A DNA stretch of 64,000 nt from Trichlorobacter ammonificans (lineage in GTDB: Bacteria > Desulfobacterota > Desulfuromonadia > Geobacterales > Pseudopelobacteraceae), in NCBI RefSeq assembly GCF_933509905.1, contig NZ_OW150024.1:1352001-1416000 (forward strand), written 5' to 3'. Below are positions 5,221-39,510 of this stretch, piece after piece; position 1 is the first letter of the stretch; the number at the start of each line of letters is the position of its first letter. Position numbers and translations under genes: made by a program. The notes beneath the pieces are model-generated. The model did not search any database and was not told the DNA's origin. It saw nothing but the letters and a program-made list of their open reading frames with translations.

Positions 5221-6192
5221 ATGCAGGCAGCACTGGAGCTGATAGGAGACGATCTCAGGCAGGTCGAGGAACAGTTCAGAAAGGATCTGGAGTCCGACGT
5301 TCCGCTCATCCGCAAGGTTGGCGAATATGTTCTCGCCAGCGGTGGTAAGCGCATTCGTCCCGCCATGCTGCTTCTGGCGGCCAGATTATGTAACTACTCA
5401 GGTTTTCAGGCAATTCCCCTGGCCAGCGTGGTCGAATTCATTCATACTGCAACCCTGCTGCATGACGATGTGGTCGACAGTGCCACGTTGCGGCGCGGTA
5501 CTGCCTCTGCCAATGCCCTGTGGGGTAATGAGGCCTCGGTGCTGATCGGCGACTTCCTGTTTTCAAAATCGTTTTCTCTGATGGTTGCGGCTGGCAGTCT
5601 CGACGTACTGCGGGTCATGTCCCGCGCTACCACCATCATTGCAGAAGGGGAGGTCCTGCAGCTCCTCGGTACCGGAGATGTTGACCTGACCGAAGAACGC
5701 TATATCGAAGTGGTGCGAGCCAAGACAGCTGTCCTGCTTTCCGCGGCCTGCCAGTGTGGCGCCATTCTGGGCTGCGCCTCTGAGCAGCAAGAGCAGGCCC
5801 TGGCCGATTTCGGCATGGAGCTGGGGATCGCCTTTCAGCTGATGGACGATATTCTGGACTATACCGCCACCCAGGAACAGTTCGGGAAGAGTATTGGCCA
5901 CGATCTGGAGGAAGGCAAGATCACGTTGCCGCTGATTCACACGCTGCGTGGCTGCACGTCGGAAGAACGGGAATTCGTTGCCGCCATCGTTCAGCAGGAT
6001 GACGAACTCTCCTTTGATGATTTCAGCCGCGTTTCTGCTCTGGTGCAGCAGTACGGCGGTATTGACTATACCATTGCCAAGGCGCGTCAGGCGGTTGACT
6101 CCTGCGCGTTCCATCTGGCGGCCTTTCCGGACAGTGCCTGCAAGCAGGCGCTGCTGGAGCTTGCAGAGTACGTTGTTACCCGCAACCGCTAG
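5221..6192 (+). CDS. ispB: Trans-polyprenyl diphosphate synthase (octaprenyl-type)
   Basis: A 323-residue all-alpha prenyltransferase that extends farnesyl diphosphate with isopentenyl diphosphate to make the quinone side chain. The first Asp-rich motif is in LLHDDVVDSATLRRG (about residues 79-93) and the second in LMDDILDY (about 208-215). GGKRIRPAM near residue 40 is the substrate-binding GKR motif. Two small residues sit before the first motif rather than bulky aromatics, as expected for long-chain (C35-C50) synthases. Length agrees with IspB/HepT-like proteins. Since menaquinone is the usual quinone in this group, the product is probably its side chain. It has its own promoter. Confidence 0.9.
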   Translation: MQAALELIGDDLRQVEEQFRKDLESDVPLIRKVGEYVLASGGKRIRPAMLLLAARLCNYSGFQAIPLASVVEFIHTATLLHDDVVDSATLRRGTASANALWGNEASVLIGDFLFSKSFSLMVAAGSLDVLRVMSRATTIIAEGEVLQLLGTGDVDLTEERYIEVVRAKTAVLLSAACQCGAILGCASEQQEQALADFGMELGIAFQLMDDILDYTATQEQFGKSIGHDLEEGKITLPLIHTLRGCTSEEREFVAAIVQQDDELSFDDFSRVSALVQQYGGIDYTIAKARQAVDSCAFHLAAFPDSACKQALLELAEYVVTRNR

Positions 6193-6267
6193 TCCTCGTC
6201 CTCGTTGGTCCGCGCCGCTGTTCCGGCTGATTCCGGCCGCTTGTTCACCTAGTTTCGGAGGAGTAGT

Positions 6268-6783
6268 ATGAAAAGGTTGGTGTTGCTGATCTGTTGCCTG
6301 ATGATGATCGTTTCGGGATGCTCAAAAGAGAAGAGCTCTGTCTCTTCGGCCGGTGTCAGGGAGAAGTCTCCGGCTCCCGAAGTCAATGTCATTTCCATGG
6401 ACAATCAGCAACTGACCCTGGCCTCGCTCAAGGGGAAGGTGGTGCTTCTGAACTTCTGGGCAACCTGGTGCCCCCCCTGTCGCGAAGAAATTCCGTCAAT
6501 GATGAAACTCAACAGTTTCATGGCGGGAAAGCCGTTCCAGATGGTCTGCATTTCCGTAGACGAGGGGGGTAAGAAGGCGGTTGAGGAGTTCTTCAGGAAC
6601 TCCGGTTTCATGCTTCCCACCTATTTTGATCCCAGCGGTCAGGTAGCAAGAAATTTCGGTGTTACCGGCGTTCCCGAAACCTTTGTGATCGACAGGCAGG
6701 GAGTTGTTGCCAAGCGGGTCATCGGCGGCCTGGACTGGAGCAGTCCCGAGGTGATCGCCTTTCTCGAAGGGCTGATGAAGTAG
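6268..6783 (+). CDS. TlpA/ResA-type thioredoxin-like lipoprotein
   Basis: A 171-residue periplasmic thiol-disulfide protein tethered by a lipid anchor: signal MKRLVLLICCLMMIVSGC with lipobox. The thioredoxin fold carries the active site WATWCPPCREE near residue 70 and the cis-Pro segment GVPETFVID near 135. Proteins of this kind reduce apocytochrome c cysteines before heme ligation. The gene lies 25 bases upstream of ccdA, whose product hands cytoplasmic electrons to such proteins; the pair forms a cytochrome c maturation reductant pathway. GGAGGAG precedes the start. ResA versus TlpA cannot be decided from sequence. Confidence 0.9.
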   Translation: MKRLVLLICCLMMIVSGCSKEKSSVSSAGVREKSPAPEVNVISMDNQQLTLASLKGKVVLLNFWATWCPPCREEIPSMMKLNSFMAGKPFQMVCISVDEGGKKAVEEFFRNSGFMLPTYFDPSGQVARNFGVTGVPETFVIDRQGVVAKRVIGGLDWSSPEVIAFLEGLMK

Positions 6784-6808
6784 GAGACAGGAGCCGGACG
6801 CGGCTGTT

Positions 6809-7537
6809 ATGGAAACTCAGCAAATCTCATATCTTGGCGCGTTTGTGGCCGGAGTCCTCTCCTTTCTCTCTCCCTGCGTGCTGCCCCTGATTCCATCCTA
6901 CATCACCTATATCACCGGGCTTTCCTTCAGTGATCTCGATGCCGAGCAGCCGGCGGCCCGGGTGCGTCGTACCACCTTCTTCCACGCTTTCACCTTTGTT
7001 GCCGGTTTTTCGCTGGTATTTGTCCTGCTGGGGGCCTCGGCCACCTTTGCCGGTTCCTTTCTCAAACAGCATATGGATGCCGTCCGCAAGGTTGGCGGTA
7101 TCCTTGTCATTCTGTTCGGTATCCATATCACCGGCCTTCTGCCGATACGCTGGCTGCTGGGCGAAAAACGGATAAATCTGCGTCATAAGCCTGCCGGCTA
7201 CCTGGGTAGTCTGCTGGTCGGCATCGCCTTCGCAGCCGGCTGGACCCCTTGCATCGGCCCCATCCTCGCTTCAATCCTGATGATTGCTGCCACCGAGGAA
7301 AAGGTAGCCCATGGGGTGACCCTGCTCATGCTCTACTCCATTGGGCTGGGACTACCCTTTCTGGCCTCGTCGTTGGCCGTGCATCGCTTCGTGGTGCTAT
7401 TCAACCGTTTCAAAAAACATATCAGGCTGTTCGAGATCGTGACCGGTTTGTTTCTGGTGCTCGTCGGCATCCTGATCTTTACCAACTGGCTTTCCCTGCT
7501 GGCGGGATATGCCAACCTGCTGTTTTTGAAGGGCTGA
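6809..7537 (+). CDS. ccdA: Cytochrome c biogenesis protein CcdA (DsbD membrane domain)
   Basis: A 242-residue polytopic membrane protein with six hydrophobic segments. The two conserved redox cysteines lie in LSPCVLPLIPSYITY (about residue 23) and GWTPCIGPILAS (about residue 145), symmetrical in the two half-repeats as in the LysE/CcdA fold. It moves reducing equivalents from thioredoxin in the cytoplasm to periplasmic thioredoxin-like proteins, here most likely the lipoprotein encoded just upstream. The VOC gene follows after a single base, so the three genes are probably one transcript. Confidence 0.93.
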   Translation: METQQISYLGAFVAGVLSFLSPCVLPLIPSYITYITGLSFSDLDAEQPAARVRRTTFFHAFTFVAGFSLVFVLLGASATFAGSFLKQHMDAVRKVGGILVILFGIHITGLLPIRWLLGEKRINLRHKPAGYLGSLLVGIAFAAGWTPCIGPILASILMIAATEEKVAHGVTLLMLYSIGLGLPFLASSLAVHRFVVLFNRFKKHIRLFEIVTGLFLVLVGILIFTNWLSLLAGYANLLFLKG

Positions 7538-38024: not shown

Positions 38025-38063
38025 AAAACCGCCTGTCGTCTTCTGACGACAGGCGGTTTTTTT
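38025..38063 (+). terminator. Intrinsic terminator after paaK
   Basis: AAAACCGCCTGTCGTC and GACGACAGGCGGTTTT pair perfectly around TTCT and are followed by further Ts (seven in all). It also lies at the end of the convergent deaminase gene and may serve it weakly. Confidence 0.93.
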
Positions 38064-38075
38064 CATGCGTGGTGC

Positions 38076-38519
38076 TCAGACGCCGATATCTTCATTCCAT
38101 AGTTCCGGCCGTGTAGCGATAAAATCGCTCATCAGGCGGATGCACTCCTCGTTCTGCTCAACGGTCACCGCTACCCCGCGGGAGCGCAGCAGTTCCTCGT
38201 CGCCCATGAAAGTGCGGTTTTCGCCGATCACCACACGGGGGATGCCGTACAGCAGAATGGCTCCGCTGCACATGGGGCAGGGGGACAGGGTGGTATAGAG
38301 GACCGACTCCCGGTAGACCCGGGCAGATTGCCGACCGGCGTTTTCCAGCGCATCCATCTCGCCGTGCAGGATGGCGCTGCCCTGCTGGACCCGGCGGTTA
38401 TGGCCGCGGCCGATGATTGTTCCCTGGTGGACGAGCACCGCGCCGATGGGGATGCCACCTTCGGCCAGTCCCTGGCGTGCCTCCTCCAATGCTGCCTGCA
38501 GATAGTCAGTGTCTGTCAT
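38076..38519 (-). CDS. Yeast-type cytosine deaminase homologue (Fcy1-like)
   Basis: A 147-residue zinc-dependent deaminase. Zinc ligands and the proton shuttle are His52 and Glu54 in LHGEMDAL and Cys81/Cys84 in SPCPMC. The rest follows the Saccharomyces cerevisiae cytosine deaminase closely as I remember it: GRGHN with the ring-contacting Asn, QGSAILHGE, YTTLSPC, MYGIPR-like LLYGIPR, IGEN followed by Phe, and the C-terminal flap RPELWNEDIG with its Trp. Most bacteria use the unrelated CodA for this reaction, so conversion of cytosine to uracil by this fold is notable. TadA and guanine deaminases are the alternatives, but they lack the WxEDIG end. AGGAG precedes the start. It follows the lipoprotein gene by 34 bases. 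Confidence 0.87.
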   Translation of the reverse strand: MTDTDYLQAALEEARQGLAEGGIPIGAVLVHQGTIIGRGHNRRVQQGSAILHGEMDALENAGRQSARVYRESVLYTTLSPCPMCSGAILLYGIPRVVIGENRTFMGDEELLRSRGVAVTVEQNEECIRLMSDFIATRPELWNEDIGV

Positions 38520-38553
38520 GGTCCGCCTTCTCCTGTTTGGAAACCTGTCAATT

Positions 38554-39468
38554 TTACTGCACAAAATACTCTGTCGTCGTTTTGACCGATTTGATTCCCA
38601 CTGAAATAGTTTTGGGATTGCCCTGCTGGTCAATCCGGTTGCCATGAACCACGTACTCGCTCAGACCAATATGGCTGGGGTCCCCCCAGTCGTAGGTGTA
38701 TCCGAGCCTGGTCCAGGGGTAGGGAAGTGGGTCTGATATGTTGGTTGCGGGATAAGGGTAGGAGTAAACAAAGCTGCTGCGGTTGTCAAACCATCCCCGG
38801 TAATCCCTGAATTCAGAAACGCCGCCCTCTGTTGCCTTGACCTTTTCCGTAGCCGTGAAGCTGAGGAAGGCGCTGTTGGGATAATCGGTCTGGCATTCTC
38901 GGTCCGTTATCTCCGGGTCGGGACAGGGCCTGAACAGATCAGCGGGGGAAACCCACAGCTCCAGCACATAGCGCGCTTCCTTCGGATTGCCGGGCATCGC
39001 ATAGTCAGGTGGCAGGCCCAACAGTTGCGCTACCCTCAGCGGCGTCGGCACGGTGCCCTTGAAAAAGTTTTTAAGCTCCGGCGCCACGGTGACCCAGGTG
39101 TCCCATCTGTAGGTTGGACACTCCCGGCCTTCCTTGCAGGTGTCACCGGTCTGACAGCCATCTGGGGGACATTTGTAGGAGGCACCGGCGTTCCCCATCC
39201 AGGTGGTTACCAGTACGCGGCCTCCCACAACACCGTGTTCCCATATGAGGTTTGGATTGTCGGGCGTTATGTGCGTCAGCCCCTGATACACTTTTGCCGG
39301 AGTTACCATGTAGGCGTCCAGCACCGCCTGCCGATACAGTACCGTGGTGTCGCTCTGGGACGGCGACGGAAGAGAGTCGTTTCCGCAAGCCGTAAGCAGC
39401 AGTGACAGCACGATCACAATGAGATGCGGTACCGTACAGGTGTGTAGCGCCCTCAAATACAGCCACAT
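38554..39468 (-). CDS. Lipoprotein of unknown function
   Basis: A 304-residue exported protein. A hydrophobic signal ends in the lipobox LLTAC (about residue 28), followed by a Ser/Pro linker. The mature part is rich in Tyr, Trp, Pro and Gly and has a Cys cluster near residues 100-116 (CPPDGCQTGDTCKEGREC) plus two more Cys near 185-193, probably disulfides. The pattern of short beta-prone stretches suggests an all-beta fold. ATG 39468 is chosen because AAAGGAGTGG lies just before it; the frame is open five codons further. Base composition is a little more AT-rich than its neighbours. I do not recognise a family. It sits between the AmrS-type and deaminase genes on the same strand. Confidence 0.68.
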   Translation of the reverse strand: MWLYLRALHTCTVPHLIVIVLSLLLTACGNDSLPSPSQSDTTVLYRQAVLDAYMVTPAKVYQGLTHITPDNPNLIWEHGVVGGRVLVTTWMGNAGASYKCPPDGCQTGDTCKEGRECPTYRWDTWVTVAPELKNFFKGTVPTPLRVAQLLGLPPDYAMPGNPKEARYVLELWVSPADLFRPCPDPEITDRECQTDYPNSAFLSFTATEKVKATEGGVSEFRDYRGWFDNRSSFVYSYPYPATNISDPLPYPWTRLGYTYDWGDPSHIGLSEYVVHGNRIDQQGNPKTISVGIKSVKTTTEYFVQ

Positions 39469-39510
39469 GACCACTCCTTTCATGTCATTGTCGTTGCCGC
39501 ATGTGAAGGG

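Follow-up and report, generated by a model that had tools for sequence, protein, structure and literature searches.

Does a bacterium carry the yeast type of cytosine deaminase, and is such a gene out of place there? Cytosine deamination is commonly assigned to CodA in bacteria and to Fcy1 in fungi. A short reading frame in a 64,000-nucleotide stretch of the Trichlorobacter ammonificans genome (the window; positions are counted from its first letter) had been taken, in a sequence-only reading, for an Fcy1-like gene in an unusual host. The coordinates given there, 38076-38519, are right and the open reading frame is real, but it lies on the minus strand (Table 1); the plus-strand frame over the same positions is interrupted by a stop. 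We propose that its product is very probably a cytosine deaminase (EC 3.5.4.1), small and zinc-dependent, of the kind known from yeast (Fcy1). The gene is an ordinary member of a widespread, under-described bacterial family that goes by vague names.

Table 1. Features of the deaminase locus. Residues are numbered in the window protein, with the yeast number where given; sources marked "part" were available in part.
Feature	Position in the window	Strand	Basis or remark
Yeast-type cytosine deaminase gene (predicted), 147 aa	38076..38519	minus	start codon ATG at 38519; last base of the stop codon at 38076
AGGAG, likely ribosome-binding site, 10 nt 5' of the ATG	38530..38534	minus	sequence read by eye
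Hairpin (16-nt arms, 4-nt loop, T/A tails) separating the deaminase gene from a convergent paaK-like gene	38025..38063		read by eye
ORF with a lipoprotein-like start, 34 bp upstream of the deaminase gene	38554..39483	minus	ORF list, Pfam scan
Asn41 (yeast Asn51), base contact in yCD, common to TadA	38397..38399	minus	alignment; PMC11000218 (part)
His52-Gly53-Glu54 (yeast 62-64): zinc ligand, base contact, proton shuttle	38358..38366	minus	alignment; PMC11000218, PMC11796326 (both part)
PCPMC (80-84), zinc ligands Cys81 and Cys84 (yeast Cys91, Cys94)	38268..38282	minus	alignment
Phe104 (yeast Phe114), active-site aromatic	38208..38210	minus	alignment; PMC11000218 (part)
WNEDIG (141-146; yeast Trp152, Glu154, Asp155, Ile156, Gly157), C-terminal lid over the pocket	38082..38099	minus	alignment; PMC11000218 (part)

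The motifs named in the sequence-only reading are all found in the translation: GRGHN (N41), QGSAILHGE (H52, E54), LYTTLSPC..C (C81, C84), IGENRTF (F104) and WNEDIG (141-146). The Phe placed after IGEN does exist, but as the third residue past that block and not immediately next to it. The window protein is 52% identical to yeast cytosine deaminase (yCD, Fcy1; 75 of 143 columns). A phmmer search of the PDB returned 13 yCD sequences at E ~1e-45, a similarity well beyond chance, followed by TadA at 7.5e-22; the search matched 47 sequences in all, the 34 others scoring at most 81 bits, and no solved bacterial member is among the 47. An AlphaFold2 model of the protein (pLDDT 97) superposes on yCD (1uaq) at 1.1 A over 147 residues with a Z of 28.7, and Foldseek gives a TM of 0.95-0.96 for the model against yCD. 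In the same superposition search TadA reached a Z of at most 21.7, plant guanosine deaminase scored about 20 and NE0047, a guanine deaminase, about 18, so that the predicted model is nearer yCD than either TadA or guanine deaminase. The Fcy1-like assignment thus stands on fold (in the predicted model), pocket residues and lid, all of which match yCD.

The active site tells the same story. According to the available part of PMC11000218, Asn51, Gly63, Glu64 and Asp155 of yCD touch the ligand, and product release involves Phe114, Trp152 and the C-terminus. The window protein has the zinc site (HGE and PCxxC), all four base contacts, and the aromatic lid of Phe114 and Trp152 with its EDIG tail; in yeast numbers it retains N51, G63, E64, F114, W152, E154, D155 and I156.

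Which of these residues separate yeast-type enzymes from TadA? Our alignment holds two bacterial subtypes, A and B, the former including a few double-fetched genomes (e.g. L122/L048, L123/L097, L138/L043), and 23 TadA rows, all of which match the NCBIfam TadA model. The discriminating residues are F114, W152, D155 and I156 (yeast numbers), each found in 0/23 TadA rows. F114 is present in all 170 rows of subtypes A and B. Within subtype A, F114, D155 and I156 are present in 139/139 rows and W152 in 138/139, the exception being L087, which has an in-frame stop there; within subtype B, F114, W152 and D155 are present in 31/31 rows and I156 in 30/31 (V in L151). Every A and B row has E154, as does one of the 23 TadA rows, and Gly157 varies in one A row and six B rows. 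The Asn of GRGHN, proposed in the sequence-only reading as a yeast-defining residue, does not have that role: Asn51 is N in every A and B row except one B row, but it is non-discriminating because all 23 TadA rows have N as well. The two subtypes themselves are told apart by yeast position 100, a clean A/B switch at the pocket entrance, with Leu in 139/139 subtype-A rows, Gln in 31/31 subtype-B rows (e.g. L018, L019 and L162) and Met in yeast. Position 92 is Trp in 21 of the 31 subtype-B rows.

We find it barely credible that the window protein is a TadA paralogue or a guanine or guanosine deaminase. The HxE/PCxxC fold is common to all of these, and Pfam PF00383 and PF14437 both match the window protein, the former also matching a GuaD-like gene in locus L014. 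However, the window protein scores 72.5 bits against the NCBIfam TadA model (NF008113), well short of the cut-off of 150, whereas a separate TadA gene of the host genome (G000:C1:2426918), 36% identical to the window protein, passes with 164.4 bits. Furthermore, a tree of 74 rows, with TadA as outgroup and a single fungal sequence (yeast, from the PDB), splits subtype A, subtype B and yeast from TadA with support of 100/100. The protein therefore groups with yeast Fcy1 and not with TadA. The GuaD-like rows had fallen on a branch of length 10 in a first tree and were removed from the final one. Identity as TadA or as a guanine deaminase was rejected on the scores, the tree and the residues. With the window protein as query, the guanine deaminase 1wkq reaches 44.3 bits and yCD about 158. 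The host genome also has a separate GuaD-like gene (G000:C1:1177611-1177898), a call made by motif for a gene that reaches no NCBIfam cut-off. The window protein itself is above cut-off for no NCBIfam family, and none of the seven Pfam families that it matches at E up to 1 is an amidohydrolase. Kinship with the isocytosine deaminases Vcz and URA3 was also rejected: these are related to 8-oxoguanine deaminases (PMC6186785, in the part available). The GuaD-like gene, a second free-standing HxE/PCxxC deaminase, also occurs in L014 (1983-2636) and L017 (17-505) at 42-46% identity to the host copy; it lies beside or near the yeast-type gene in these two loci and ~212 kb away from it in the host genome.

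How unusual is a yeast-type gene in a bacterium? Among 38 genomes (the host and its relatives), 16 have a yeast-type protein at E 2.6e-72 or better, and the next values start at 5e-19, with other deaminases. Eight of 297 genomes of the phylum carry one at E < 1e-35; four of these eight are already among the 38, and an in-frame stop interrupts one of them (L016). Searches with yeast Fcy1 (E <=1e-22) found matches in 34/349 Pseudomonadota, 27/296 Actinomycetota and 35/198 Bacteroidota genomes, that is, in about 9 to 18% of the genomes sampled in three large bacterial phyla; the phylum names are those given in the titles of the named loci around which the samples were centred. A scan of named genomes returned at least 595 stretches, 592 of which encode some relative at E 1e-3. 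At 67-82% identity, the best 80 of these stretches take in Pseudomonas, Halomonas, Bacteroidota, Omnitrophota, Acidobacteria, Verrucomicrobia, Planctomycetes and Gemmatimonadetes; the closest relatives among the matches listed are bacterial, at 80-86% identity. Phages gave no match at E 1e-20. The annotation is "nucleoside deaminase" in nine of 11 plasmid records. Hence the idea that the gene is unusual for a bacterium is not supported; it belongs to a large, patchy bacterial family that spans several phyla.

The origin of the fungal enzyme is a separate question. Subtype A and yeast form a clade (100/99) with subtype B outside, in a tree whose bootstrap had not settled; the yeast branch is long, and its placement within A is tentative. 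In AU tests, holding bacterial A as one clade without yeast gave a likelihood 4.9 higher than that of the free tree (p 0.648), and yeast may therefore be sister to bacterial A instead of nested inside it. A position of yeast outside every bacterial member (p 0.136) or with B (p 0.316) was not rejected either. With no alternative placement rejected, transfer may have run in either direction. The tree favours, but does not prove, an origin of the fungal enzyme within the diversity of bacterial A and B. The suggestion that this family is the bacterial stock of the fungal enzyme is thus compatible with the tree but unproved.

The other origin that had been suggested, an inter-domain transfer, fares worse if taken as a move from a fungus into this bacterium. 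Two observations could speak for such a recent acquisition: the spread among relatives is patchy (16/38), and about half of the residues are identical to yeast. Against this, the closest listed relatives are bacterial and many bacterial phyla carry the gene; bacterial subtype B branches outside A and yeast, in a tree with one fungal sequence; and the composition of the gene is native, with a GC3 of 0.757 as compared with 0.677-0.858 in six neighbouring genes, GC being native as well. We consider recent transfer from a fungus highly improbable and reject it, because the family is broad in bacteria and the base composition is that of the host.

The local surroundings of the gene give no clue to its function. 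Its neighbours in the window are the paaK-like gene, the ORF with a lipoprotein-like start and a radical SAM protein, with no pyrimidine-related gene among them. The upstream ORF, for which Pfam gave no match at E 1e-4, is possibly co-transcribed with the deaminase gene. Relatives of this ORF lie directly upstream of the deaminase gene in locus L011 (56% identical) and ~3.8 kb from it in locus L077 (53%). The hairpin downstream is a probable two-way terminator for the paaK-like gene and the deaminase gene; it is not among the output of a simple hairpin scan. An Rfam scan of the window found nothing at gathering scores.

What, then, would the enzyme do? By analogy with yCD, zinc would be held by His52, Cys81 and Cys84, and Glu54 would act as the proton shuttle in hydrolytic deamination of cytosine at the zinc. 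Asn41, Gly53 and Asp144 would contact the free base, and Phe104, Trp141 and the C-terminal tail would make up a lid, closing over cytosine and having to move before uracil can leave. The uracil could then be salvaged through uracil phosphoribosyltransferase (upp), and some other bacteria appear to route it into reductive degradation. The yeast-type deaminase would in this way do the job that CodA does in E. coli, with a different fold, in a genome with no detected CodA. Substrate, catalysis, a dimeric state and physiological role are inferred for the window protein; what the analysis shows directly is its sequence and residues, the superposition of the model, the neighbourhoods of some relatives, the lack of a detectable CodA and the presence of upp.

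Three kinds of pyrimidine gene adjoin some relatives. In seven loci (L155, L159, L161-L164 and L167), five of subtype B and two of subtype A, a CodB-type permease gene is found no more than 200 bp from the deaminase gene and on its strand; all seven are among 25 Actinomycetota loci with 1.5 kb flanks. The permeases of L155 and L164, the two checked of the seven, pass the NCBIfam "cytosine permease" cut-off. The same cut-off is passed by a permease in Pusillimonas (L045), encoded 3 kb from the deaminase gene on the other strand, and on a Palleronia plasmid a "nucleoside deaminase" gene is followed 32 bp later by codB. PreA and PreT-like genes lie upstream on the same strand in three subtype-A loci (L065, L073 and L111), with PreA 122 to 813 bp away; in L065, PreA passes its NCBIfam cut-off and the PreT-like protein passes none, its assignment being based on 34% identity to E. 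coli PreT. Finally, three subtype-B loci (L165, L173 and L175) have upp in convergent orientation at most 26 bp away, and the Upp of L165 passes its cut-off. No CodB-type, PreT/PreA or upp neighbour was found in 23 TadA control loci. The presence of a CodB-type permease, PreT-PreA or upp beside some relatives therefore supports a cytosine-to-uracil role.

These associations are confined to a minority of loci. Only 5/80 genome-contig loci match any CodB, PreT/PreA, DHPase or Upp query at >=100 bits, and in two of these five the match is 3 kb off and on the opposite strand. The CodB and upp neighbours belong mostly to subtype B, and the window protein is of subtype A. Neither UraA nor CodA was found near the deaminase in any of 196 loci. 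No conserved neighbourhood was found in general: the 759 ORFs of 80 loci clustered into small groups only, and no dominant Pfam family emerged when 53 of the 76 same-strand neighbours within 400 bp, mostly the longer ones, were scanned. One locus of a Saprospiraceae MAG (L111, 1-4732) has, upstream of the deaminase gene, a dihydropyrimidinase fragment truncated at the contig edge, a CN-hydrolase, the PreT-like gene and PreA, and is an apparent cytosine-to-beta-alanine operon. Its CN-hydrolase, which may serve as a beta-ureidopropionase, has its best NCBIfam score, below cut-off, for N-carbamoylputrescine amidase.

Could the window protein prefer a related free base, such as isocytosine, 5-methylcytosine, creatinine or an s-triazine like ammeline, over cytosine? 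A change of substrate is within reach of the scaffold. In a branch from plasmids (pADP-1, Klebsiella and others), 53% identical to the window protein, R and I replace Phe114 and Trp152, the pADP-1 copy adjoins a cyanuric acid amidohydrolase fragment, and the subtypes differ at yeast position 100. Because the plasmid branch has altered Phe114 and Trp152, homology alone does not fix the substrate. However, the window protein keeps all eight yCD residues listed above, from N51 to I156, and pyrimidine genes adjoin some relatives, and we regard a preference for another base as unlikely. Cytosine remains our predicted substrate. The plasmid relatives without the Phe114/Trp152 lid residues are L203 (pADP-1; 5983-6459) and L204 (a Klebsiella plasmid; 6509-6985). 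On pADP-1 the deaminase gene is followed by the fragment, whose match to cyanuric acid amidohydrolase is below cut-off; on the Klebsiella plasmid an NCS2 permease gene and a carbamate kinase gene flank it, with amidohydrolase genes farther out on either side. The plasmid branch is possibly a deaminase of s-triazines or a related base.

Yeast-type genes and CodA share genomes less often than expected in Pseudomonadota. CodA was found at E 1e-20 in 0/38 of the host and related genomes, and the same query matches 96/349 Pseudomonadota genomes. Among these 349, strong CodA matches (72 genomes; E < 1e-90, a cut-off picked after viewing the list) and yeast-type matches (34) coincide in one genome, with 7.0 expected (Fisher p 0.006, phylogeny ignored). 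With all 96 CodA matches there are four overlaps and 9.4 expected (p 0.04, phylogeny ignored), and in Actinomycetota 13 CodA genomes and 27 yeast-type genomes show no overlap, with 1.2 expected (p 0.6, phylogeny ignored). The host genome has upp. There is no association between upp and the deaminase gene among the 38 genomes: E. coli-type upp occurs in 5/16 with the deaminase gene and 4/22 without (Fisher p 0.45). A search of the host genome for an NCS1 (PF02133) permease gave no match, so uptake of cytosine or 5-fluorocytosine is uncertain. Hence sensitivity to 5-fluorocytosine, which had been forecast for the host, is only partly predicted: upp is in place, but the route of entry is in doubt.

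Bacterial relatives of the yeast enzyme are not new, since a 2022 review already calls such sequences cytosine deaminase and shows short bacterial "CDA" proteins in an alignment with that of yeast (PMC9508425, in the part available). The same part describes two separate clades, with bacterial and fungal enzymes said to have evolved separately, and its section 1.2 describes no yeast-type family spread through bacteria. Among the open-licence papers listed, judged by title and abstract opening, none dealt with FCY1 as a gene of bacterial origin or with a bacterial member that had been characterised. A 2024 paper on convergence sets "yeast" against "bacterial" enzymes (PMC11796326, in the part available). 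A yeast-type family in bacteria is a useful correction to the picture of CodA in bacteria and Fcy1 in fungi, and it bears on metabolic models and on which bacteria can activate 5-fluorocytosine. Use of the yeast enzyme in prodrug work is limited by heat instability, as the available part of PMC12615592 has it, and alternatives might be sought by screening its bacterial relatives. Where fungal FCY1 came from also becomes testable, given a tree with good sampling.

We also offer a broader reading, tentative enough that we would put its truth slightly below an even call. General cytosine deaminases would come in two unrelated kinds in bacteria, the yeast-type enzyme being the older bacterial stock from which fungal FCY1 came. 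The yeast-type enzyme would replace CodA lineage by lineage, in interchangeable cassettes with CodB, PreT-PreA or upp, and diverged plasmid copies would have been recruited to s-triazine breakdown. If this is true, bacteria with the yeast-type enzyme could activate 5-fluorocytosine without codA.

How does the window protein compare with known systems? Saccharomyces cerevisiae Fcy1 (1uaq, 1p6o) is the closest, with the same fold, zinc site, base-binding residues and C-terminal lid at about half of residues identical. The window protein differs in having Leu90 for yeast Met100, Pro82 for Asp92 and Asn142 for Phe153, and in its bacterial host. Many of the residues listed as conserved in the available part of PMC9508425 (e.g. 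E20, H53, E55, C82, C85 and W142) fit the window protein, on our reading, with an offset of none or one. TadA has the deaminase fold and the HxE/PCxxC motif in common with the window protein but, in the 23 rows compared, lacks both F114 and the W152/D155/I156 lid. E. coli CodA, of the amidohydrolase superfamily, catalyses the reaction predicted for the window protein, whereas its fold and metal ligands are unrelated. The yeast and E. coli cytosine deaminases are treated as a convergent pair in the available part of PMC11796326, and the window protein is a possible functional substitute for CodA.
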